The position numbers were made by a program, and so were the translations under genes. The notes under the pieces were generated by a model that was given only the letters and a program-made list of their open reading frames with translations, did no database searches and was not told the DNA's origin. Of a DNA stretch of 64,000 nucleotides, positions 322 through 16,108 are shown piece after piece. The stretch is from contig JAJPJA010000093.1 in NCBI GenBank assembly GCA_021324455.1, forward strand, positions 1-64,000, read 5' to 3'. Within the stretch, counting starts at the first letter, position 1; each line of letters starts with the position of its first letter. This DNA is from Pseudomonadota bacterium. GTDB taxonomy: Bacteria > Desulfobacterota > Binatia > Binatales > Binataceae.

Positions 322-397
<76 letters not shown>

Positions 398-425
398 ACC
401 GTTGAGGAAGGGAGCGGCGTTTGGG

Positions 426-502
426 TGGGGTGAGTGAAGGGATTTGAACCCTCGACCACCGGAGCCACAATCCGGTGCTCTGCCAACTGAGCTACACTCA
501 CC
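426..502 (-). tRNA. tRNA-His (anticodon GTG)
   Basis: The minus strand gives a cloverleaf with anticodon loop TTGTGGC (anticodon GTG) in a CCGGA/TCCGG stem. The extra 5' G at position -1 (502), opposite C73 (429), is the identity mark of tRNA-His. CCA is encoded at 426-428. Confidence 0.96.
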
Positions 503-534
503 GCCGTATCGAAAACCGCGAGCACTTCCGGCAA

Positions 535-611
535 TGGCGCGCCAGAAGGGACTCGAACCCCTGACCCGCGGCTTAGAAGGCCGCTGCTCTGTCCACCTGA
601 GCTACTGGCGC
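535..611 (-). tRNA. tRNA-Arg (anticodon TCT)
   Basis: The minus strand gives a cloverleaf with acceptor GCGCCAG/CTGGCGC, anticodon arm GCGGC-CTTCTAA-GCCGC and anticodon TCT, which reads AGA. CCA is encoded at 535-537. Confidence 0.95.
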
Positions 612-619
612 AAATTAAA

Positions 620-693
620 TCGGGGCGAGCCGATTTGAACGGCCGACCCCCTGCTCCCAAGGCAGGTGCGCTACCAGGCTGCGCCACGCCCCG
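620..693 (-). tRNA. tRNA-Pro (anticodon TGG)
   Basis: The minus strand gives a cloverleaf with acceptor CGGGGCG/CGCCCCG, anticodon arm CCTGC-CTTGGGA-GCAGG and anticodon TGG. The base after the acceptor stem is A followed by TTT, so CCA is not encoded here, unlike the other three tRNAs of the cluster. It is the promoter-proximal gene of the group. Confidence 0.95.
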
Positions 694-707
694 AGACATT
701 AGGGATT

Positions 708-1464: not shown

Positions 1465-2730
1465 TCACTCCTGATACAAGGCCAGGCCTTTGGCAACTGA
1501 TGTGAATTCGTCGCCCGCCCGGACTATTGACGGGTCGAACCGATCAGTAAAAATCTTCCGGATCGCGGGAACCATCGAGGATCCGCCGGTCAGAAACACC
1601 CGGTCCACCTGTTTGGGCGCGGCGGCCGCAGCGCTCAGCAGTCGATCGATACATTCGGATATTTGCCGGCGTTCGGCGGCAATCCAGTGCTCGAACTTTT
1701 CGCGCGCGGTGTGCTGACGGAGCGCAAGCGGCGGCGCGGTGAATTCGAACTCGGCATGGTCGTTGGCGGACAACGCCAGCTTGGTCCGCTCCACCGCCGC
1801 GAACAGCGCATAGGCGAGATCCTCCTGCACGATTCGAATGAAGGCCGCGATTTTGTCCGGCTCCAGCGCCTGGGCGTGAAGCTCGCGCAGTCTGGTCATC
1901 GTCGCCGGCGCCTTCAGCATCGAGAGCTGATGCCATCGCTCCAGGCGCGAGTAGACCAGGGCCGGCATCGGCAACACGCGGCCGTAAACGGTGCGATAGC
2001 AGGAGCCGAGGCCAAGTTCGGGCGCGACCAGATGATGTACGATACGCCCGTCGAATGCGTCGCCGGCCGCGGCTACTCCCTCGCTGGCCAGAATATCGTA
2101 TCGCGGCGGCATGCCGGCGCGCGGCCGAATCCGCATCAGCGAGAAATCGCTGGTGCCGCCGCCGAAGTCGCCGACCAGCAGGATCTGTTCGGTATCGACG
2201 CCGGCGCCATAATGATAAGCGGCGGCGACGGGCTCGTATTGAAAGATCACTTCCTCCCATCCGGCGATCGCAAGCGCAGTCCGCATCCGCCGCAGTGCGC
2301 GCTCTTCGTCGTCGGCGTTATCGGCGCCGGAAAAACGCACCGGCCGGCCCACGACCGCGCGGCGCCCGAGGTCACCGAATTGACGCTCGGCGGTCTGACG
2401 TATCGGAACCAGGATCAGCGAGATCAGTTCTTCCAGTGTAAATCTGCGGCCGAAGATATCGGTGGCGCTGAAATTCCGATCGGCAAGGAACGATTTCAGC
2501 GAGAGCAGCAGACGGCCGTTGCCGCCGCTGTCCAAATAATGCGCGATGGCAGCGGCGCCGGCGGCGGGACGCGCCCTGGCCGCCGGACCATGCTCATCGG
2601 CGTCGAAGAACAGGATTGAGCGGAAGGTGGCGGCGGAATCGAAGCTGGCCAGCCGCGGCTGCGAATCGCCGCCGCGGACCGCCAGCGCGCTGTTGGTGGT
2701 GCCGAAGTCGAGTCCTACGATGCGAGTCAT
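1465..2730 (-). CDS. Hsp70/DnaK-like ATPase (YegD-type, nucleotide-binding domain only)
   Basis: The 421-aa protein has the actin/Hsp70 ATPase fold signatures. Phosphate-1 is GLDFGTTNS at residues 6-14. Phosphate-2 is GDFGGGTSDFSL mid-protein. The adenosine motif LTGGSSMVPAIRKIF lies near the C-terminus. It stops after the ATPase domain and lacks the DnaK peptide-binding domain and lid, as in YegD-like proteins. ATG at 2730 is chosen over an in-frame TTG at 2736. It lies 142 bp behind the kinase gene on the same strand and is probably the last gene of the FHA-channel-kinase operon, perhaps as an ATP-driven remodelling factor or phosphorylation target (inference). The family is clear, the partner is not. 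Confidence 0.85.
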   Translation of the reverse strand: MTRIVGLDFGTTNSALAVRGGDSQPRLASFDSAATFRSILFFDADEHGPAARARPAAGAAAIAHYLDSGGNGRLLLSLKSFLADRNFSATDIFGRRFTLEELISLILVPIRQTAERQFGDLGRRAVVGRPVRFSGADNADDEERALRRMRTALAIAGWEEVIFQYEPVAAAYHYGAGVDTEQILLVGDFGGGTSDFSLMRIRPRAGMPPRYDILASEGVAAAGDAFDGRIVHHLVAPELGLGSCYRTVYGRVLPMPALVYSRLERWHQLSMLKAPATMTRLRELHAQALEPDKIAAFIRIVQEDLAYALFAAVERTKLALSANDHAEFEFTAPPLALRQHTAREKFEHWIAAERRQISECIDRLLSAAAAAPKQVDRVFLTGGSSMVPAIRKIFTDRFDPSIVRAGDEFTSVAKGLALYQE

Positions 2731-2872
2731 GCGCAAAGTTTCAGCATACGCGAGGGCGGTTTATCAGCGTAGATGAGGCGGCCGGGTCGAAACCGGTTCG
2801 CATTTAGTGCGGATGCGCCTTGATGGTTCTTGCGCCGTGCAGCGATGCGGCAGAGCGCGGAGGAGGAAAAGA

Positions 2873-4636
2873 TCAGCCGCTGGAGGACGGAGCGGTTTCC
2901 GGCACCTGAGCGCTGATTACGTAGCGTCCGCCGAAGACCGGTTCCAAATCCCACTTAAGACCCGACAAATCCTGATCGCCGGTGCTGGTGCCGCGCGGAC
3001 TGTTGGCCAGCGTCGCGCGCTTTACGGTCGGCGATCGCATGCCCCTTTGCTGCGCCTTTCTGATCGCTTCGGTGACGCTCAGAAAGCGGTCCGGAATCGG
3101 CAGCTTGTCGCCCCAGTCGACAAAGCCCATATCGTAAACGTCGCTGTCGGGCTGCGCCGCGCTGCCGGGCGCGTTGGGAGTGATCATGATACCTTTCTGT
3201 TTGGAGGGGGAGTAAAAATCAAAGCGGATCATCGCAGTGCCGTCGGAGGTTTGCACGTAGGCATTGCTGTTCCAGGGCTGCAATTCCAGGTTGATCTCGA
3301 CCAGTTCGGCGTCGCTGGACCATTTGCGGGCGCGCTCGCGCGCCTTGACCGCAATAGTGTCGAGGTCGGCGGGCGGCCACGAGTCCTTCAGCGGAGCGAT
3401 TTCGCCGGCATGCGACACCTTGAACATATACGCCGCATAGGCGGCCGGCACACTGGGCATCCCGGCCGGCATTCCGGGCATCGCGTTGGCCGCCGGCCTC
3501 GAGCTTCGATGCGAGAAGATCAGAAAGCCGATCACGAAGAACAACAGCAGGCCCACACCCGCAGCGGCGCGCCGGGCCCACGGATTGGCGGCCAGATCGC
3601 GCGTCCACGATGGAAGGGGAAATCGCGTGCGCGCGGTTCGTGGTGCCCGCCGCGGCATCGTCGCCGATGACGGCAGACCGATCGCCGCCTGGAAATCCTG
3701 GATAGTCTCGTAGCGCTGCGGCGCTTTAACCGCCAACGCCGTCATCAGCGCCTCTTCCGGCGCCGGCGGAATGTCGGATCCCAGCGCACTGGGCGGCTCA
3801 ATCCGATCGTCGGCGAGGCGGTCGATCGACGGCGGCGGCACCTGTCCGGTTATCAGATGATAGAACGTCGCGCCGACGGCATACACGTCGGTCCATGGTC
3901 CCTGGCTGCCCGAGCTGCGATACTGCTCCTCGGGCGCGTAGCCCACCTTGAGGATGACCGAGAGGCGCTGGCTGCGATCGCGCAGCGCCTGGCGGGCGGC
4001 GCCGAAGTCGAGCAGCTTAACCTGCCCGCCGGTGGTGACGTAGATATTGTCGGGGCTGATATCGCGATGCACCACGCCGACGCGATGCAACTCGCGCAGC
4101 GCGTCCATCACCGGCGTCATCAGCGCGAGCGCCTGATTGAAAGAAAGCCGCCCGCCCTGCTGCGCCAGGTATTCCTTGAGCGTGCAGCCTTCAAGGTATT
4201 CCATCACCAGGTAGGCGGTGCCGTTGGCGGGGAAATAGTTGGTGACGCTGATGATTCCCGGATGCTCCTGGAACTGCGCCACCATCCGGGCTTCGTCCAG
4301 AAAGCGCTCCAGGCCGTACTGGAAGTCCTGTCCTGAGACGCCCGTATGCGGCATCACCTGGCTGGTCGCGCCGGAGCGGCTGGCCAGCCCGCTGGGCATG
4401 TATTCCTTGATTGCAACGCGCCGCGCCAAACGCACATCCCAGGCCAGATAGGTAATCGCGAAGCCGCCGGCGCCGAGCGCGCGGCCGACCACATACTGAT
4501 CGTTCAGCACCGTGCGCAGCGGCAGCTGGACTCCGGTTTTCGGATAGGCGGACTCGTCGAAGCCGCAATCCGGACACACGCGCGCCGCGCCGCGATCTTT
4601 CATGCATCCCATACAAAGTTGCGCCGCGTTGTCCAA
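2873..4636 (-). CDS. Zinc-ribbon Ser/Thr protein kinase with one transmembrane span
   Basis: The 587-aa protein starts with a zinc ribbon (C8-x2-C11 and C21-x2-C24). A Hanks-type kinase domain spans about residues 48-320. It has the Gly-rich loop GAGGFA (55-60), ATP lysine K77 in VAIKEY, catalytic loop HRDISPDN (190-197) and DFG (210-212). The usual HRDLKPxN lysine is Ser194 here. A hydrophobic span lies at about 357-375, followed by a roughly 200-aa C-terminal domain, so the kinase is cytoplasmic and the tail extracytoplasmic. The start is TTG at 4636, supported by a strong GGGAGG site inside the end of the phosphatase gene 3 bp upstream. The next ATG would cut off the first zinc cysteine. 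Its operon partners are the PP2C phosphatase and two FHA proteins. Confidence 0.93.
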   Translation of the reverse strand: MDNAAQLCMGCMKDRGAARVCPDCGFDESAYPKTGVQLPLRTVLNDQYVVGRALGAGGFAITYLAWDVRLARRVAIKEYMPSGLASRSGATSQVMPHTGVSGQDFQYGLERFLDEARMVAQFQEHPGIISVTNYFPANGTAYLVMEYLEGCTLKEYLAQQGGRLSFNQALALMTPVMDALRELHRVGVVHRDISPDNIYVTTGGQVKLLDFGAARQALRDRSQRLSVILKVGYAPEEQYRSSGSQGPWTDVYAVGATFYHLITGQVPPPSIDRLADDRIEPPSALGSDIPPAPEEALMTALAVKAPQRYETIQDFQAAIGLPSSATMPRRAPRTARTRFPLPSWTRDLAANPWARRAAAGVGLLLFFVIGFLIFSHRSSRPAANAMPGMPAGMPSVPAAYAAYMFKVSHAGEIAPLKDSWPPADLDTIAVKARERARKWSSDAELVEINLELQPWNSNAYVQTSDGTAMIRFDFYSPSKQKGIMITPNAPGSAAQPDSDVYDMGFVDWGDKLPIPDRFLSVTEAIRKAQQRGMRSPTVKRATLANSPRGTSTGDQDLSGLKWDLEPVFGGRYVISAQVPETAPSSSG

Positions 4637-4639
4637 GGC

Positions 4640-5452
4640 CTATCCTCCCTCAGGCCAAGCCCGCTCGACCTTGATACAGATAACGGTGACGTTGTCCTGA
4701 TGCGGCAGCGCGCGCGCCAGCGCCTGGCCGATCAGTTGGTCGCATGCGGACTGGCTGTCGGCGGCGGATGCGAGCACGGCGGCGATGGCGCCGGTATCAA
4801 GCGCGCGGAACAGCCCGTCGCTGCACAGCAGCAGGAAATCACCCGGCATCAGGGCGACACCGTCGTCTTCGGCATCCACTTCGGTAAGTTCGCCCGCGCC
4901 GACATAGCTGGTGAGGGCGTCGCGGTCGGGATTGGACTGCGCCTGTTGGGCGGGAATCTCGCCGCGCGCCGCCATCCGATCCAGGCGCGCGCCGAGCGTA
5001 TGCGGCTGATTGAGCAAAGCGAGCCTCGGATGCCGAAAAAGATAAATCGCGCTGTCTCCCACCGATATCCAAAACAGATGGCGCGCGGCAAGCGCCGCCG
5101 CGACCAGCGTGGTACCGGCGTCATCCGGGGGCGCCGCGGCGGCGGCGAATTGGAACACCGCGCGATCGGCGGCGTGCAGAGCGCGGCGCATCGCGGCCGG
5201 GATGTCTTCATCGCGATCTTTTGCCGCGTACGCCTCAAGAAAAGTGTCGACCGCGATGCGGCTGGCCTGCGCGCCATGCGCCATCCCGCCCATCCCGTCG
5301 GCGACCACCGCGAGCAATCCGCCGTGCTCCATAAAGCCGCGGTCCGCCGGATCGGAGAAGGCGAAGGAATCCTGCTGGTCGGCGCGGCCTCCCCGATGCT
5401 GCCCGTTGGCGGGCGCGTAGCGAAAGCCGTCAGTCCCAATGAAACTGGTCAT
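4640..5452 (-). CDS. PP2C-family (PPM) Ser/Thr phosphatase
   Basis: The 270-aa protein has the PPM metal-binding motifs: RADQQDSF near residue 23, VVADGMGGMAHG at about 49-60, LLLCSDGLFRAL about two thirds along, and HQDNVTVICIKV near the end. It should remove phosphate from proteins phosphorylated by the kinase encoded 3 bp downstream. Its start overlaps the end of the FHA gene by 23 nt, which suggests translational coupling. It has no membrane segment and is a soluble cytoplasmic enzyme. Kinase, phosphatase and FHA reader in one operon form a complete phospho-switch. Confidence 0.93.
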   Translation of the reverse strand: MTSFIGTDGFRYAPANGQHRGGRADQQDSFAFSDPADRGFMEHGGLLAVVADGMGGMAHGAQASRIAVDTFLEAYAAKDRDEDIPAAMRRALHAADRAVFQFAAAAAPPDDAGTTLVAAALAARHLFWISVGDSAIYLFRHPRLALLNQPHTLGARLDRMAARGEIPAQQAQSNPDRDALTSYVGAGELTEVDAEDDGVALMPGDFLLLCSDGLFRALDTGAIAAVLASAADSQSACDQLIGQALARALPHQDNVTVICIKVERAWPEGG

Positions 5453-5972
5453 CGCACAGGGGCCAGAACATCAGCCGGGTCTTGCCCAGTTCGATGATGT
5501 CGCGGGATTTGAGCGGGCTGGGCGTGTTGACCAGTTGGTCGTTCAAATACACCAGACCGGAAGCCTCGCCCGGGAGCAGCCAGAAGTTGCGCTTTTTGGG
5601 ATCGTAAGCGACCGCGGCGTGCTTGTCGCGCGAGACGCTGTCGTCGCCCGCGATTACGATGTCCATCGCCGGGCCGCGGCCGATAAAGTTCTTCTCGCCG
5701 TGGATTCGATAGTCGCGTCCGCGGTCGGGCCCCGCGACGCAGACCAGCCAGCCGACCACCGGGCTGACGCCGGTGCCGGCTTCGCGATAGGCGGCGCGGG
5801 TCACGCCCGGGTCGGTCATCGGCGGCGGCGCCGGCGGCCGGAGTTGCTGCGGCGCCGGCGGCACCCGGCGCGTCTTGCCTTCGATATCGGCGCCCACTCC
5901 GCAGTAAGGGCAGGAGCTGTGCTTGGAGGAGTCGAAAAAATGCCCGCGGGCGCATCTCGTCATTGTGTCCAT
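5430..5972 (-). CDS. Zinc-ribbon FHA-domain protein
   Basis: In this 180-aa protein a short Cys-containing segment comes first (C7, then CPYC at about 21-24). A Pro-rich linker and a C-terminal FHA domain (about residues 75-180) follow. FHA marks are FIGRGPAMDIVI, then DDSVSRDKHAAV, with Arg, Ser and His placed as in phosphothreonine-binding FHA domains. The fork usually reading NGT is replaced by a shorter YLNDQLV strand. It should bind phosphothreonine on partner proteins such as the kinase or the channel components. It begins 7 bp after the second 186-aa gene and overlaps the phosphatase gene. ATG at 5972 or 5963 could be the start. Confidence 0.85.
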   Translation of the reverse strand: MDTMTRCARGHFFDSSKHSSCPYCGVGADIEGKTRRVPPAPQQLRPPAPPPMTDPGVTRAAYREAGTGVSPVVGWLVCVAGPDRGRDYRIHGEKNFIGRGPAMDIVIAGDDSVSRDKHAAVAYDPKKRNFWLLPGEASGLVYLNDQLVNTPSPLKSRDIIELGKTRLMFWPLCDDQFHWD

Positions 5973-5979
5973 AGGCGCA

Positions 5980-6540
5980 TCAACCGTTCTTCCACAGATC
6001 GCTGTTCAGATCGGTGGAAAGGATATTGAAATCGAAATCCACTGGCTGCCCGGCGCCGCGCACCGATGCGGTCCGGGTCCACTGATTATTGGGATTCTCG
6101 AGGTCGAGATTGACGTCGCACGGAGTGCGGATCGGTCTGACGCGAACGCTCAGGTGATAAGCGCCGGGCGCGAAGGCGAACAGGAAGAAGCGGGCATAAG
6201 CGCCGGAGGCGATTTCCGCGCCGGGGAAGAAACTCAGCGTGCCGCCGGACTCGCTGGACGATCCCGTCACTTCCAGCGTCGCGCAGGCGTCGGGTCGGTC
6301 ATTGTTGAAGGCCCCCAGCGACAGGTACGCGAACGGCGGCACCGGGCCTGCCAATCCTTTGACCCGCGGCTGCGGTTCGGCAGCCTGCTTTTGCGCCCCA
6401 GATTTCGCCCCGGAGCGATGCGATTTGTAGTACGACGGAAACAGCGCCAAAGTCAGAAAACAGAACGCGCCCAACGCACCGGTGAGCAGGTCCAGCACCG
6501 ACATGTTGAAGATGTTGACTTCGCGGTTGCGCGGCTTCAT
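5980..6540 (-). CDS. 186-aa single-span protein B, ExbD/MotB-like N-terminus
   Basis: A basic cytoplasmic N-terminus (MKPRNREVNIFNM) precedes one hydrophobic span at about residues 14-36 with an aspartate, D17, at its start (SVLDLLTGALGAF). This is the topology of ExbD, TolR and MotB, whose membrane Asp carries the proton or sodium ion beside an ExbB/TolQ/MotA partner. Such a partner is encoded upstream in this operon. The outer part, about 145 aa, has no TolR or OmpA-like peptidoglycan motif that I recognise. Residues 1-40 are almost identical to the upstream 186-aa paralogue and the remainder has diverged. The role is inferred from topology and context, not from a named family. Confidence 0.7.
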   Translation of the reverse strand: MKPRNREVNIFNMSVLDLLTGALGAFCFLTLALFPSYYKSHRSGAKSGAQKQAAEPQPRVKGLAGPVPPFAYLSLGAFNNDRPDACATLEVTGSSSESGGTLSFFPGAEIASGAYARFFLFAFAPGAYHLSVRVRPIRTPCDVNLDLENPNNQWTRTASVRGAGQPVDFDFNILSTDLNSDLWKNG

Positions 6541-6560
6541 CGCAATGCCCGTCGCGTACC

Positions 6561-7121
6561 TTATCGATGCGGCACGATGCTGGTGAGGAGCTGCTCGGGT
6601 TTGACCTCGAAGTTAAACAGGTAGGGCGCCGGAGATCGGGTCAACGCACCGGTCAGCGCCGCCGAACCGCCGCGCGGCGTCCGCTGCGCATACACGATAC
6701 TGCAGGGCAGGGAGACGGCCACGGCGGTAACGGTCATGTGGTAGGAACCGGTATCGAACAGGAACATGGTGCTGTAGCTTTCGTAGCCCTCGGCCTGGGC
6801 GCCGGCGCTGAACGGCAGCCGGCGGAACGATCGGCTGCCGCGCGGCGCCTGCACGCGGTCAACCTTGAAGTAGCCGCAGCGATTGCCCTGGTCGTTGACG
6901 GCGAAGAGCTCGGCCAGGGAAAAGGGCGGAATGCCGCCCTTCGCTCTGGTCGGTTCGGGTTGGTAGGGACTTTCCGGCGGTTCCGCCGCGGAAGGATTGT
7001 TGGACTTGAAATACGACGGGAACAGGGCCAGCGTGAGAAAACAAAACGCTCCCAGCGCGCCGGTCAGCAGGTCCAGCACCGACATATTAAAGATGTTGAC
7101 TTCACGGTTGCGCGGCTTCAC
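6561..7121 (-). CDS. 186-aa single-span protein A, ExbD/MotB-like N-terminus
   Basis: This is the sister of the following gene, with the same length (186 aa) and the same first 40 residues except one Tyr-to-Phe change, but an unrelated-looking outer domain. The start is GTG at 7121, overlapping the TGA of the channel gene as GTGA, so translation is coupled to it. The membrane span is residues 14-36 with Asp17 at its cytoplasmic edge. A Pro/Glu-rich linker (about 43-58) leads to a predicted extracytoplasmic beta-rich domain. With the upstream TolQ-like protein it probably forms a stator-like complex in which the two paralogues could make a heterodimer (inference). Confidence 0.7.
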   Translation of the reverse strand: MKPRNREVNIFNMSVLDLLTGALGAFCFLTLALFPSYFKSNNPSAAEPPESPYQPEPTRAKGGIPPFSLAELFAVNDQGNRCGYFKVDRVQAPRGSRSFRRLPFSAGAQAEGYESYSTMFLFDTGSYHMTVTAVAVSLPCSIVYAQRTPRGGSAALTGALTRSPAPYLFNFEVKPEQLLTSIVPHR

Positions 7122-8008
7122 TGCGGTCCCAGGTACAGACGATTGATCAGATTGCGCAGCGTGTGATTGCCCGCCAGATTCACCGCCGTTTCCTCGCGCT
7201 CCTGCGCCAGGTAGAGCACGAACACCAGAATCGCGCTCTCCAGCAACGCCACCAGCGTGCAGTTGAAGCCCAGCGACAGCGCGTGCGCGATGGCGTAGAT
7301 CGAAAGCTCGCCGTTCTCCGGCACCAACGCCAGCGATCCGCCCAGTCCGATCACGGTGCCGATAAAGCCCACCGTCGGGATCAGCCACGCCAGATAGCGA
7401 ATCAATCCGTAGCGCAGGTCCACTCGATGCTCGAGCAGTTCCAGGCTGCTGTTCATCACCGATACCACCTGGTCGATGGATCGTCCGGATTGAAACTGGA
7501 GGATCGAGATGTCGATCAGCGAGGGCAGGAAGCCGTGCTCGCGATCGAACAGGTGCGCCACGCGGCGGCGAATCGGAACCAGGTCGGCGGGCTGGAGCAC
7601 CGTCTCCTGGTCCTCGGGCAGAAGGCGCATCGCGAAGAACTGATGCTCGCGCTCGGCCACGCGCCATCGCACAAACAGCTCGCCCAGTCCGATGAAGAAA
7701 ATGATGTGCTCGAGGTTCTGGACCGTGAACGGATACGGGAAATGGGAAAAGCGGCTGTGATCGATCAGGATTTCGGCGCCGTAACTGTCCTTGGGAAAGA
7801 TGATGCTGAGTAAAATGATGAACACGATTGCCGCGCCGACCGACAGGCACATCACGGCGCGGCGATCGGGCAGGGCCCAGATTTGTTGGAGGAAACCGGG
7901 CGCCGGCTCCGTGCCCCCGCCCGGCGAGGGTCGCGGGCGCGGGGCCGGTGCGGCGGGAGTCGGGCTCTGTCCCGGACGCATCCGCCCGGCTTGCTCAGGC
8001 TGATTCAT
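7118..8008 (-). CDS. MotA/TolQ/ExbB-family proton-channel subunit
   Basis: The 296-aa membrane protein has a Pro-rich cytoplasmic N-terminus (1-40) and four hydrophobic segments at about 51-71, 98-115, 205-227 and 245-267. A large cytoplasmic part lies between segments 2 and 3. Segment 3 carries WLIPTVGFIGTVIGLGGSL, the family's Pro...Gly-hFlGTV-x-G signature. Segment 4 has SLGFNCTLVALLESA, the counterpart of the conserved Thr/Ala helix. ATG at 8008 is preceded by GGGAG. An in-frame extension upstream overlaps the FHA gene and is unlikely. It sits between an FHA gene and the two Asp-bearing single-span proteins, so it is the five-subunit-type channel partner by analogy with ExbB and MotA. Confidence 0.88.
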   Translation of the reverse strand: MNQPEQAGRMRPGQSPTPAAPAPRPRPSPGGGTEPAPGFLQQIWALPDRRAVMCLSVGAAIVFIILLSIIFPKDSYGAEILIDHSRFSHFPYPFTVQNLEHIIFFIGLGELFVRWRVAEREHQFFAMRLLPEDQETVLQPADLVPIRRRVAHLFDREHGFLPSLIDISILQFQSGRSIDQVVSVMNSSLELLEHRVDLRYGLIRYLAWLIPTVGFIGTVIGLGGSLALVPENGELSIYAIAHALSLGFNCTLVALLESAILVFVLYLAQEREETAVNLAGNHTLRNLINRLYLGPQ

Positions 8009-8028
8009 GACTGGAACACTCCCGAAAG

Positions 8029-8421
8029 TTATTCGCCGCAGGCGGGGCACGGCTGCCCGCGCGGTTTGACCGTACCGCATCCGCAGCGCACGAATCCTCC
8101 GGCTCCGGCCGCCGCCCGCGCGATCGGGGGAGGGTTGGCCGGCGGCGCGGCGGAATTCTTCACCATATTGAGTACTTCCTCGACGGGGATGGCGACCTCG
8201 CCGAAGCGCAGCGTATCGCTGAGGAATACCACTTCCTCGGTCAGCGGAAATTCGCGGCCCTTGCGGATCAGGACGGTGCCGTTCTGGCTGCCGAGATCGC
8301 GGACCATGAAGCTGCCGTCCGATCGCAGCTCAACCTCGGCATGCTTCCGGCTGACGGAATCGTGCGCGATCGCGATATCGCAGGTCTGGGCACGCCCAAC
8401 GGTGTAACGTCGAGGAGCCAT
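8029..8421 (-). CDS. FHA-domain protein with C-terminal zinc ribbon
   Basis: In this 130-aa protein an FHA domain fills residues 1-95. Its core is YTVGRAQTCDIAI, then SVSRKHAEVEL and DLGSQNGT, all the phosphothreonine-contact residues being present. The last 25 residues contain C-G-C and CPAC, a probable zinc ribbon. It is the first gene of the eight-gene signalling operon, 20 bp before the channel gene. Domain order (FHA then zinc) is the reverse of the second FHA protein of the operon (zinc then FHA). It is likely to dock phosphorylated channel or kinase to its partners. Confidence 0.88.
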   Translation of the reverse strand: MAPRRYTVGRAQTCDIAIAHDSVSRKHAEVELRSDGSFMVRDLGSQNGTVLIRKGREFPLTEEVVFLSDTLRFGEVAIPVEEVLNMVKNSAAPPANPPPIARAAAGAGGFVRCGCGTVKPRGQPCPACGE

Positions 8422-11837: not shown

Positions 11838-13112
11838 TTAAGGCCGGGCCGGACCGGTTTTGGCCCAACCCGCGGCCGAAGCGGGGCGGTATAGTTCAGC
11901 GGCGGACAAGCCGGTAACCAGACTGCCGCGCATCCCTCCGGCGATCAGAACCTCCCCATCAGGAAGCAATGTCACGGTGTGACCGATACGGGGCGTAGTC
12001 ATGTCCGGGAGCGCGATGAACGCACCGCGGCCGGGGTCGTAGAGCTCCGCAGTCGCGACCACCAGCGGACCGGGAGGCAAAAAAAAGGTCTTGAATCCGC
12101 CGGTGACAAGTACCCGCCCGTCGCTCAGGAGAGTCGCGTCATGCCTGAACCGCGAACTGATCATGCTTCCGGTGGGGAGAAATTTCTGTTGGGAAGGATC
12201 GTACAGGCGAGCGTCGCTGAGCGTGACTCGACCGGCGACGCCGCCGGCTATCAGGACTTTACCGTCGGCCAGCAGGACCGCGCTGCCGTTGCTTGCGGCG
12301 CGTTCTCCGACGCTCATCCCCGATAGCGGATTGAACTGTCCGGTTCCCGGGTCAAACAGCTCCGCGCTGCTGAGAAAATTGTTACCTGCCCAGAGCATCG
12401 GGTCCGGACCACCTCCGCGCATTCCGCCGATGATAAAAACGCCGCCGTTCTTCAGCGCCGTTGCGGCATGCAGCACTCGTGCGACCGTCATGTTGCCCGT
12501 GGCAACGAATTTTCCCGCCGCCGGATCGTAAATCTCGGCACTGGCCGCCATGTCGTTCATCTGATTGCCGTTCCCCGCACCACCCGCAATTAAAACTCTG
12601 CCGTCGGGAAGCAATGTGGCGCTATGCCATTGACGGGGCATCGTCAGGTTTGCGGTGGCGCTGAATGTTCCGGAAACAGGATCGAAAAGTTCAGCGCTCG
12701 CCAGCGCCTCTCCCGCCCGGAAGCCCCCCGCGATCAGCACCTTGCCATTCGGCAACAAAGTTGCCGTGTGGCGCGCGCGGGCCGAAAGCATCCTGCCGGT
12801 AGGTATGAATCTGTGCGCAACCGGATCGTAAAGCTCGGCGCTATCAAGTTCATTGCGAAAGCCGCTCCTGCCGCCTGCGACAAGGACCTTACCGTTGGAC
12901 AGTAAAGTAGCCGTATGGTAGGCACGCGCTGTGCTCATATCGCCGGTGGGGACGAAGGTGCCGTACCTCCCGCCCCAACCCGCTCTCGCGGAAGCGGACA
13001 GCAGCAGAGCCGCCGATAGCAGGATAAGCAGGAAGCCTGTTACGCGAGGCCGGGCGGGCGGAGTTTCGATCCGTGAACGGCCGGATAGCGCAGAGAACAC
13101 TGCCCCGATCAT
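11838..13112 (-). CDS. Secreted kelch-repeat (galactose-oxidase-like beta-propeller) protein
   Basis: The 424-aa protein has an N-terminal basic region and hydrophobic core (about 24-44) ending SASARAG, a signal peptide. Then come about seven repeats of 45-60 residues with the pattern R-x-x-H-T-A-T-L-L-x-N/D-G-K-V-L-V/I-A-G-G followed by A-E-L-Y/F-D-P. This is the kelch motif of a beta-propeller, probably extracytoplasmic. There are no galactose-oxidase copper ligands that I can place, so a binding rather than enzymatic role is likely. ATG at 13112 has an AAGGGGGG site just upstream. Confidence 0.85.
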   Translation of the reverse strand: MIGAVFSALSGRSRIETPPARPRVTGFLLILLSAALLLSASARAGWGGRYGTFVPTGDMSTARAYHTATLLSNGKVLVAGGRSGFRNELDSAELYDPVAHRFIPTGRMLSARARHTATLLPNGKVLIAGGFRAGEALASAELFDPVSGTFSATANLTMPRQWHSATLLPDGRVLIAGGAGNGNQMNDMAASAEIYDPAAGKFVATGNMTVARVLHAATALKNGGVFIIGGMRGGGPDPMLWAGNNFLSSAELFDPGTGQFNPLSGMSVGERAASNGSAVLLADGKVLIAGGVAGRVTLSDARLYDPSQQKFLPTGSMISSRFRHDATLLSDGRVLVTGGFKTFFLPPGPLVVATAELYDPGRGAFIALPDMTTPRIGHTVTLLPDGEVLIAGGMRGSLVTGLSAAELYRPASAAGWAKTGPARP

Positions 13113-13298
13113 CTGCCCCCCTTTTTGTTCTATTGCTATTTTAAATAACATTCTTGCTCATTCAATTGAACTCTCCCGATATCGAACTGGCAGCGCGGCG
13201 AAAGGCAGGCCGACTTACGCCTGAAAATGCGGATGCTCTGCCGCGAACACAGCGGGCCGCGCGGATAAACGCCCGCGGTTTGCGCATTTTTCCTGCCG

Positions 13299-13336: not shown

Positions 13337-15922
13337 TTACCTTGCCAGGCCAATTGTACTGATCGTCGCCGGCAAGCCGGCGACGGCGGCGGGGCCGCGC
13401 GCGGTGCTGACCGCGACGCCGCCTGAGGGCGCGCTTTGCCGTGATGTGCCCAGCACCGCGACGCCGCCATTGCCGCCGCATCCCGCCTGCGCCGCCGCAA
13501 ACAGCAGCAATGCCGCGGCCATCAGACGTATGCGCAGGCGCCTGCAACCGGGTATCGCAACCGCGCCCAAATTAATCAGCCCCAGGATAATCGCCATGGA
13601 CGCGCCGCCGGGATTGTTCCCGCCGTAACTCACCATTCCGGCAAGGCCGAGCCGGCCGCTAATCCGCGAGCTGACCATGGTCGCGCGCAGCGCAAACCCG
13701 GCCGAACCACCGGCCGGAACTGACAGGGCGGGGCTGAAGGTAAACGTGATGGTGCCGCTCAATGCTCCAGGCGCCGCGGTTTGCGTCGCGCCCGCGCTGG
13801 TGCTCGCACTCAATGCGAGTGAAGAGAACAACGCCGGATTGCTGACGCTTAATGTCACCGCGCCCACGCTCTCAGCCATCCCGCTGGTGTTGTTTAATTT
13901 CAGGCTGCCGGCGGCGATAGTTTGCCCGGCAAATCCGATCACGTCGATGTTCGACGAAGTAATCAGCGCAGCTGGCGCCGGCGTCGAGGTCGGCGATGGA
14001 CCCGGGGTGGCGCTGACGGCAGCGGACGGCGTCATGGATGGAGTGGGACTGGCCGACGCGGTTGGGGTTGAAGTGGGTGTCGCAGTGGCGGTGGCGGAAG
14101 GCGTCGGAGTCGCGAATGCGCCGATCAGTTTATTAATATCGGGACTGCCCAGCCCGGTCGCGAGGTCGTAGCCCGGGCCGACCTGATATCCGGGAAATAC
14201 GGTGCAGTTGAAAAAAGGGCAATTCTGACCCAACTGCGATACGTCAACCAGCGGCCCTCCCGGTACGGCAATCGCGTATAGTTGCGGATTGATGTTACCC
14301 AAACGGTGGCTGCCGAGGCGCTGCGCGATGAGGCGCGAGATGCCCGCCCAAATGGGCGAACTGGCACTGGTGCCGCCATCGCCGACATAGCAGATCGGCG
14401 CGCCGCCGGGGCATCCTTGAATCTCATTGGTGGTGGCAATCCATAGCCCCGGCTGATTGGGGCTGGCGACGGCGGCCACGTCGGGCAAGCCGCGCTTGGT
14501 GAACTGTGCCGCGCTCAGACCAAAGGGCACCAATCCGATCTGCCACGGCGGCTTGGGGAAGACCACGCTGATACCGCCGCCGCTGGCGCCTTTTTGCGGC
14601 GACGGCGTCGGCGTCGGGACCGGGTTCAACGGCGGGTACTCGTTCCACACCTGTTCCAAGCCGGGAGCAAGCACGGAAGTATTGACCCCGCTGGAATCGT
14701 AAACCGGATCGAATTGCGTGCCGCCGACCACGGTTACGTCGGCGCTGGCCGAACTCTCCTGGACGCTGGGCTGCAGGCCGGTCGCACCCGGTGTCGCGGC
14801 GGGCTGGCCGCATGGATAGAAGGATCCGTAATCGCCCGAAGAATGAAACAGCGTCTGCCCCTGCATCACCGCCTGGGCGTCGACCCCGGCGAACGCTTCG
14901 ATCTGCGCCACATCGGGACACAGCGCCCCGGTGTCATCGATGCTGGAGCTGATTACGCCGCAGGTATCCCGCTCCACCGCCAGCGAGAGCGCGTCGAACT
15001 GGGGCTGCGGCGAGGTGGGATCGTTGGCGACGTAGAGCACGACTGGCGTGCCGGGCGCAACCGCATGCGCCCAGTCGACATCGAGAATGGACTCGTTGTC
15101 GGACGGCTGCGGCAGCGGCTGCGCCGGATCGGTCGGCACCACCGTAAGATTCACCGCGGGCAGGCTGAATTGGGTGTCGAATGCCGCAACGGCGGCCGGC
15201 ACGGTGTCCGCATGCTCGAGCAGCCCGATACAGTCGCCCGCGCCGGTGCCGGCATTATTGCCCGGCGTGGTGGGCGGGCTCTGGTCGTAATAGGTCCAAA
15301 AATCCTGCGGCGAGAAATGAATCTTCTTTCCGATTTCGAATTGCGGCGACATCACCGCGGACTCACGCGGACGGCGCTGCGGGTCGGGCGAAAAACGGCT
15401 CAGCCCCATGATCGCGGCCACGCCGGCGGCGATGGAAGGGGGAAGCTGCGGGTCGTCCAGGTTCGCGTAAGCGCCCGCGCGGCTCACGATCGCAACCGAA
15501 AACGCGCGCTCCGCGGTTGCGGCGCTGCCGCTGAAATGAATCTCGCGGGTGCCAAGGTCGGTTCTGCCGACCTTGAAGTGGTTGGCAACAAGCCAGCTCA
15601 CGACACTGTTCATCTGCTCTTGCGTGGGACCGAAGCGGCGCATGAATTGGGCCCGGCCAAGCCATTGGTGATATTGCGGCGAACGCGGATCCTGAAGCGC
15701 GTCCTTGAGCGCTTGCATCTCCTGCTCATGACGCAGGGCGAGCACCGCTATCATATGCAGCGGCAGGTCATCGGGTGCGCGGCTCCATCCGGCAGCGATG
15801 GACGTATCGGGATGATTGCGCGCAATCGCAATCCGCTCCTGAGCCGGCGCCGCGGAAAAACCCAGGGCGCCCATCGACACCGCCCCGATCAGCGCTGCGA
15901 CAAACCGAATTGATTTTTTCAC
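13337..15922 (-). CDS. Secreted S53 (pro-kumamolisin/sedolisin) serine-carboxyl peptidase
   Basis: The 861-aa protein starts at GTG 15922 after GGGTGG. A signal peptide at 1-27 is followed by a pro-kumamolisin activation domain (about 35-190), then the catalytic domain. The catalytic Glu and Asp are in ESILDVDWAHA, the oxyanion Asp in SSGDYGS, and the nucleophile Ser in GGTSASSP. The calcium-site Asp motif is PGYDLATGLGSPD. A roughly 45-residue Pro/Thr/Ser/Ala linker follows, then a beta-sandwich-like domain, and two hydrophobic stretches near the end around a CGG tail. That layout suggests an acid-active endopeptidase held at the cell surface. It is transcribed apart from its neighbours. Confidence 0.92.
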   Translation of the reverse strand: MKKSIRFVAALIGAVSMGALGFSAAPAQERIAIARNHPDTSIAAGWSRAPDDLPLHMIAVLALRHEQEMQALKDALQDPRSPQYHQWLGRAQFMRRFGPTQEQMNSVVSWLVANHFKVGRTDLGTREIHFSGSAATAERAFSVAIVSRAGAYANLDDPQLPPSIAAGVAAIMGLSRFSPDPQRRPRESAVMSPQFEIGKKIHFSPQDFWTYYDQSPPTTPGNNAGTGAGDCIGLLEHADTVPAAVAAFDTQFSLPAVNLTVVPTDPAQPLPQPSDNESILDVDWAHAVAPGTPVVLYVANDPTSPQPQFDALSLAVERDTCGVISSSIDDTGALCPDVAQIEAFAGVDAQAVMQGQTLFHSSGDYGSFYPCGQPAATPGATGLQPSVQESSASADVTVVGGTQFDPVYDSSGVNTSVLAPGLEQVWNEYPPLNPVPTPTPSPQKGASGGGISVVFPKPPWQIGLVPFGLSAAQFTKRGLPDVAAVASPNQPGLWIATTNEIQGCPGGAPICYVGDGGTSASSPIWAGISRLIAQRLGSHRLGNINPQLYAIAVPGGPLVDVSQLGQNCPFFNCTVFPGYQVGPGYDLATGLGSPDINKLIGAFATPTPSATATATPTSTPTASASPTPSMTPSAAVSATPGPSPTSTPAPAALITSSNIDVIGFAGQTIAAGSLKLNNTSGMAESVGAVTLSVSNPALFSSLALSASTSAGATQTAAPGALSGTITFTFSPALSVPAGGSAGFALRATMVSSRISGRLGLAGMVSYGGNNPGGASMAIILGLINLGAVAIPGCRRLRIRLMAAALLLFAAAQAGCGGNGGVAVLGTSRQSAPSGGVAVSTARGPAAVAGLPATISTIGLAR

Positions 15923-16108
15923 GCAGCCACCCCGCAACTCGCAAGCTGCCGTCCGGATGCGCGTGAGAATCTGGCGCGTTGTGTTGAAGACGGCGAAAAC
16001 GCGTGGATAGTAGACCGGGGACTGATCGATCACAACCGCGCTTGCGGCGCCTGCAAATCGCAACTTCCGGCCAAAGCTGACAGTCTCGCCGCCCGTGCTT
16101 CGCCCCGG

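Follow-up and report, generated by a model that had tools for sequence, protein, structure and literature searches.

The window analysed here is a stretch of 64,000 nucleotides (positions 1 to 64,000, forward strand, of contig JAJPJA010000093.1, assembly GCA_021324455.1) from a bacterium of the family Binataceae. It carries a run of seven minus-strand genes (2873-8421) encoding an FHA protein (FHA1), a TolQ/ExbB/MotA-like channel, two single-span proteins with a membrane aspartate (C and D), a second FHA protein (FHA2), a PP2C phosphatase and a membrane kinase. The module is probably an apparently undescribed motor of the TolQ/ExbB/MotA/ZorA superfamily, driven by the proton motive force and switched by threonine phosphorylation. 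This reading is carried by the channel fold, the invariant pore threonines, the Asp partner, the intact kinase, PP2C and FHA motifs and the co-inheritance of the genes, as established by sequence, structure prediction and comparative genomics. A preliminary description of this DNA had listed eight open reading frames (ORFs) in the run, an Hsp70-like gene being the last, and all eight are present; lengths are in amino acids (aa).

8029-8421, minus strand: FHA1, cytosolic FHA protein with a C-terminal zinc-ribbon-like CxC...CxxC, 130 aa (PF00498, E 4e-15)
7118-8008, minus strand: channel of the TolQ/ExbB/MotA superfamily with a Pro-rich cytosolic tail, 296 aa (PF01618, E 5e-9)
6561-7121, minus strand: C, single-span protein with membrane Asp17, GTG start, 186 aa
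5980-6540, minus strand: D, paralogue of C with an extracytoplasmic beta-sandwich, 186 aa
5430-5972, minus strand: FHA2, N-terminal zinc ribbon and atypical FHA domain, 180 aa (PF00498, E 5e-8)
4640-5452, minus strand: PP2C Ser/Thr phosphatase, 270 aa (PP2C_2, PF13672, E 2e-18)
2873-4636, minus strand: membrane Ser/Thr kinase, TTG start, 587 aa (Pkinase, PF00069, E 5e-31)
1465-2730, minus strand: Hsp70/YegD-like ATPase (HSP70, E 1e-23; PRK11678, E 8e-56), a neighbour judged to lie outside the module

The intergenic distances from FHA1 to the kinase are 20, -4, 20, 7, -23 and 3 base pairs (bp), followed by 142 bp to the Hsp70 gene, so that the tight packing and the larger last gap of the preliminary description are confirmed by the refined coordinates. 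The channel begins with an ATG at 8008, the same start as in its orthologues, and the GTG start of C overlaps the channel stop by 4 bp.

The channel matches PF01618 with 36.4 bits against a cut-off of 22.9, and its AlphaFold2 model, built on a 64-row alignment, has a mean predicted local distance difference test score (pLDDT) of 95.9. The best fold match is TolQ (Z 15.3, root-mean-square deviation 3.5 over 208 residues), followed by ExbB (Z 13.9), ZorA (Z 11.2) and MotA/PomA (Z about 10). Because TolQ aligns only from model residue 21 onward, the channel has one extra N-terminal helix relative to TolQ; MotA likewise has four transmembrane (TM) helices. W232, P235, G238, G241, T242, F272, T275 and A278 are invariant in all 64 channels compared (numbering of a 320-aa ORF; subtract 24 for the 296-aa protein). 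Two of these, the pore threonines T242 and T275, fall in a weak-scoring alignment on Thr residues of PomA that have a role in its ion path. Pfam match, superfamily fold and pore threonines together uphold the assignment to the TolQ/ExbB/MotA-like channels. The genome is of Binatota type, with Candidatus Binataceae metagenome bins supplying the nearest named relatives of the window channel.

C and D belong to a partner family with the signature R-x-R-E-x-N-I-F-x-x-S-x-L-D-x-x-x-x-A-L-G-A-F, within which the TM-like segment spans residues 13-36 and the membrane Asp17 is kept in 85 of 87 members; the proposal that the two proteins are stator-type components is supported. Residues 2-35 of C and D are nearly identical in four Binataceae loci, with the outer halves far less alike. 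Since the codons differ synonymously (15 synonymous differences across 39 codons), this stretch has been kept by purifying selection on the protein, and the same count rules out recent gene conversion between C and D. Adjacent pairs of Asp-protein genes are also found in Lysobacterales, Latescibacterota, Kiloniellales and another genome of the window's own class, an arrangement that fits a dimer of two different subunits. Neither C nor D matched any Pfam family even at E 1, so they are not detected as ExbD/TolR family members, and the same scan found no OmpA-like peptidoglycan-binding domain in them. Residues 70-173 of D are instead modelled by AlphaFold2 as a beta-sandwich (pLDDT mostly 84-95). 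The earlier statement that the outer domains are of no known type is right for the two window proteins but not for the family, since 22 of 87 relatives carry VWA domains in place of the beta-sandwich.

Kinase and phosphatase have intact catalytic motifs. The kinase retains its VAIK, HRD and DFG motifs in a layout of N-terminal zinc ribbon, kinase domain, one TM segment (about 354-379) and extracytoplasmic domain. The phosphatase retains the metal-site motifs DGMGG, SDGL and QDN, and matches the Stp1-like model NF033484 at E 1e-42, below that model's cut-off. FHA proteins of the related loci fall into three classes, namely FHA1, FHA2 and long FHA proteins, all of which keep G-R, S and H. Long FHA proteins bear a trypsin-like Trypsin_2 domain in 43 of 57 cases and a VWA domain in 4 of 57; no trypsin-FHA protease is encoded in the window operon. 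Examples of trypsin and FHA domains in one protein are seen at L035 10979-12553 and L096 16254-17951.

By the preliminary description, co-occurrence of these genes in this genome or close relatives alone would speak against a real system. An alignment of six channels, run against 84,980 species genomes, found 164 channel relatives; the 80 best were retained, and component profiles were run over all ORFs of these 80 loci. Counting same-strand genes up to 5 kb away, the channel is accompanied by FHA at 64 loci, by an Asp protein at 67, by a kinase at 51 and by a PP2C gene at 42, with all four at 29; these counts are minima, as many contigs are truncated. FHA genes occur at 27 per 100 kb up to 4 kb from the channel, and from 7.5 kb outward their density is 1.7 per 100 kb (a 16-fold difference); PP2C genes occur at 8.7 near and 0.4 far. 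Loci in Acidobacteriota, Pseudomonadota, Latescibacterota, Gemmatimonadota and others repeat, with some rearrangement, the usual order FHA-channel-Asp protein-FHA-PP2C-(FHA)-(PP2C)-kinase. The module is therefore conserved well beyond close relatives, in 12 phyla as named by the tree program for the channel relatives; the records come mostly from metagenome bins, and an isolated odd placement (e.g., Actinomycetota) may reflect a binning error.

For the channel, Asp protein, FHA1, PP2C and kinase, pairwise distances agree across loci (Spearman 0.28-0.64 in all 10 comparisons, with none of 300 permutations as high), and therefore the five genes travel together. On the channel tree, Binataceae sequences group with Acidobacteriota, and those from other members of the class fall with proteobacterial ones, a pattern that suggests transfer between phyla. 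Among 145 relative genomes the channel is present in 10, the Asp protein in 10 and both in 8. In two of these genomes (G083 and G128) a VWA-type Asp protein that the profile search missed adjoins the channel; G094 has a partial locus without the channel, and G122 only a weak Asp-protein match outside the TM segment. Viral carriage was considered and rejected, as searches of viral contigs and a phage collection gave no useful match.

As a component, the Hsp70 gene was rejected: it accompanies none of the 80 related loci. Of the "eight-gene operon" and of the claim that channel, kinase, phosphatase and FHA genes form an undescribed system, what stands is a conserved seven-gene set of stator-type and signalling genes, and what falls is the Hsp70. 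Among 57 relatives searched, a YegD-like Hsp70 occurs in 10 genomes besides the window's, 2 of which also have the operon. Operon and Hsp70 lie on different contigs in G020 and G029, the operon is present and Hsp70 missing in G018 and G033 (taken as one count, owing to an identical contig), and Binataceae genomes lacking the operon also have the Hsp70. It is a neighbour, best left out of the module. The identical contig is a 10,475-bp stretch, 100% identical between two genomes assigned to different genera (G033, L031 5028-15502; G018, L032 1-10475), which points to sharing or misbinning of the contig.

Four tRNA genes (Lys, His, Arg, Pro) are clustered at window positions 322-694, past the Hsp70 gene and close to the end of the contig. 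A tRNA-bounded island was considered and set aside: the surroundings of ilvD in two same-genus genomes hold other genes and no tRNAs, and they show no empty site. On the other side of the module, 11838-13151 encodes a repeat protein that by eye resembles Kelch-type propellers, and the large ORF at 13337-16063 resembles, again by eye, a secreted S53-type peptidase with a Ser/Thr/Pro-rich linker.

How might such a motor work? We infer its stoichiometry, phosphorylation target and role. Five channel subunits would enclose a pair of single-span proteins, in this operon probably one C and one D, as a 5:2-type assembly. Ion flow would rotate or displace this dimer, so that its extracytoplasmic heads (beta-sandwich here, VWA at other loci) act on a partner in the envelope. 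The membrane kinase may sense an outer signal and phosphorylate a cytosolic threonine, possibly in the channel, where a conserved LPEDxxT(V/M)L motif follows TM2. The setting of this motif resembles that of the TssL peptide DLPpTVVEI, the target of the type VI secretion system (T6SS) Fha protein (PMC3953482), and its Thr is offered, only as a hypothesis, as a candidate phosphorylation site bound by FHA. FHA1 and FHA2 would recognise the phosphorylated state, gating the motor or setting its location, and PP2C would reset it. Many relatives have a cytosolic FHA fused to a trypsin-like domain, which could add proteolysis in the envelope as an output. Surveillance or remodelling of the envelope is the most probable role. 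More tentatively, the related loci may represent a widespread class of phospho-switched ion motors, in which a Hanks-type kinase, PP2C and FHA gate a TolQ-like motor, and heads and trypsin-FHA proteins carry out envelope work. If so, they would form a new branch of the ion-driven 5:2-type motors (Mot, Exb, Tol, Zor, Gld) with its own Ser/Thr phosphorylation switch, and would tie eukaryotic-like signalling to envelope force generation across a dozen phyla. The module occurs in cultured strains (Lamprocystis purpurea DSM 4197, Hansschlegelia beijingensis DSM 25481 and Rhizobium leguminosarum BT01), so its role is open to direct testing.

Several points weigh against a phosphorylation-switched motor. 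At the Thr position of the LPEDxxT motif, T or S is found in 52 of 64 channels and V in 8, and one of two scan patterns selected for the motif itself (among the 54 sequences outside that pattern, 42 have Thr or Ser there). The FHA2 class lacks the N-G-T signature, which makes its phospho-binding less sure; of the "two phosphothreonine readers" originally described, the FHA domains are present in both proteins and this signature is absent from the second. The structure models cover single chains. The fold search with the D beta-sandwich, the head that would bear the load, found no clear known relative (best Z 5.3), which does not amount to a new fold. Finally, no FHA gene lies within 5 kb of 15 of the 63 channels, nearly all of which keep the Asp partner, so that the motor can exist without the switch.

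The last observation also favours the view that channel and Asp proteins form one unit, and that FHA, PP2C and kinase are a separate signalling cassette that merely adjoins it. This is quite improbable, since at 61 of 86 loci the gene directly upstream of the channel is of the FHA1 class, the gene distances are congruent, and signalling genes are interleaved with motor genes (FHA-channel-Asp-FHA-PP2C-kinase) across phyla. The FHA neighbourhood has changed, by loss or gain, at least 6 times on the channel tree. Several loci with just the channel and its partner branch from within groups of complete loci, so it seems more probable that the switch was lost than that it was gained repeatedly.

A motor with a kinase-based on/off switch could also power secretion, adhesion or surface motility through the export or movement of surface proteins. 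The VWA domains in 22 of 87 partner proteins and the trypsin-FHA proteins at many loci are consistent with this, as is the proposal that VWA proteins beside tolQR-like motors are force transducers (PMC12204202). No secretin, barrel exporter, pilin or gliding gene appeared among the recurrent neighbour clusters examined, and such a machine is rather unlikely.

A Zorya-like anti-phage role, in which the motor senses disturbance of the envelope by phage and a kinase, CHAT or trypsin protein serves as signal or effector, is somewhat less likely still. It would suit the patchy distribution (10 of 145 relative genomes), the CHAT-TPR proteins near 9 loci, and a copy that Rhizobium leguminosarum BT01 carries on a conjugative megaplasmid, about 3 kb from a complete Gabija pair (GajA, E 2e-238; GajB, E 8e-157). 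KKP, a kinase-phosphatase defence, is a precedent for defensive kinase-phosphatase-FHA modules (PMC11341870). Weak ZorA-model matches in 51 of 64 channels (best 6e-9) also speak for it. Against it, none of the PADLOC families is matched at E 1 by the channel of the window. The window operon has neither a peptidoglycan-binding outer domain nor a nuclease/helicase effector, and the module is absent from the phage collection. Named flanking families are mostly metabolic, and the 103 other flanking genes, taken without a matched control, include few defence matches (an AbiE pair and scattered others); flanking genes thus give defence little support.

Some of these neighbourhoods merit a record of their own. 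The Rhizobium locus (L151, plasmid pRlBT01d, 186-23471) holds the module, gajA-gajB and a 1610-aa protein without a Pfam match. TPR-CHAT-related proteins stand beside the module in the 9 loci mentioned, from two phyla (L054 17478-20141, L056 7107-9812, L078, L089, L090, L094 and L108 among them). More distant MotA/TolQ/ExbB channels, each followed by two small single-span proteins, occur in Anabaena cylindrica pANACY.03 (L149, 8782-11361) and Microcystis aeruginosa p1 (L150, 8932-11532) near genes that suggest defence (type III-B CRISPR and viperin; N-6 DNA methylase and SLATT), and are a candidate for a separate defence motor.

To return to the phospho-switched motor, no known system was found that combines a motor, a phospho-switch and envelope heads or proteases, and no description of the gene set was found in the open-access literature (subscription papers and preprints lay outside its scope). 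Among related reports is one on conflict systems built with VWA, trypsin and PP2C parts (PMC7159879). Judged on the features tested, the module is none of Zorya, T6SS, MotAB, ExbBD and TolQR. The E. coli yegI-yegK-yegL-yegD genes and TerY-P cassettes have a kinase, PP2C and a YegD-like Hsp70 near one another. To our knowledge they include no channel, FHA or Asp protein; Hsp70 belongs to that set and is not conserved with the present module. The T6SS PpkA-PppA-Fha pathway likewise attaches a membrane kinase, PP2C and FHA reader to a membrane machine. Its Fha binds phospho-Thr14 of TssL and activates that machine (PMC3953482), so that a kinase/PP2C/FHA set of this type can activate a membrane machine. 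Here the machine is an ion motor and no T6SS sheath gene accompanies it: VipB (PF05943) is absent from the window's genome (the control matched in E. coli), in agreement with the preliminary description.

Zorya (PMC11890865) shares a MotA-like channel, an Asp partner and patchy distribution with this module, which differs in having no long cytoplasmic tail, no peptidoglycan-binding domain that could be found, and kinase, PP2C and FHA genes in place of helicase/nuclease genes. The absence of ZorC, ZorD and ZorE partners, noted at the outset, is borne out for the operon, as none of the eight proteins scanned matched such a model; a genome-wide search for the ZorC domain matched nowhere, controls included, and so carries no weight. 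The MotAB/PomAB stators, whose phylogeny is treated in PMC12505986, share the PF01618 channel, the PomA-aligned pore threonines and the extra N-terminal helix, but their fold is less close and the partner here lacks their OmpA-like peptidoglycan-binding domain. TolQR and ExbBD are alike in channel fold, GTV pore motif and single-span Asp partner; the present module differs in the extra N-terminal TM helix, in partner outer domains, in partners that are missed by ExbD/TolR models, and in the attached kinase, PP2C and FHA genes. Finally, the VWA transducers, TonB/TolA-like proteins with an SHLS motif (PMC12204202), also join ion motor genes to VWA-bearing envelope proteins, whereas here any VWA domain is part of the Asp partner, and the motor has a phospho-switch as well.

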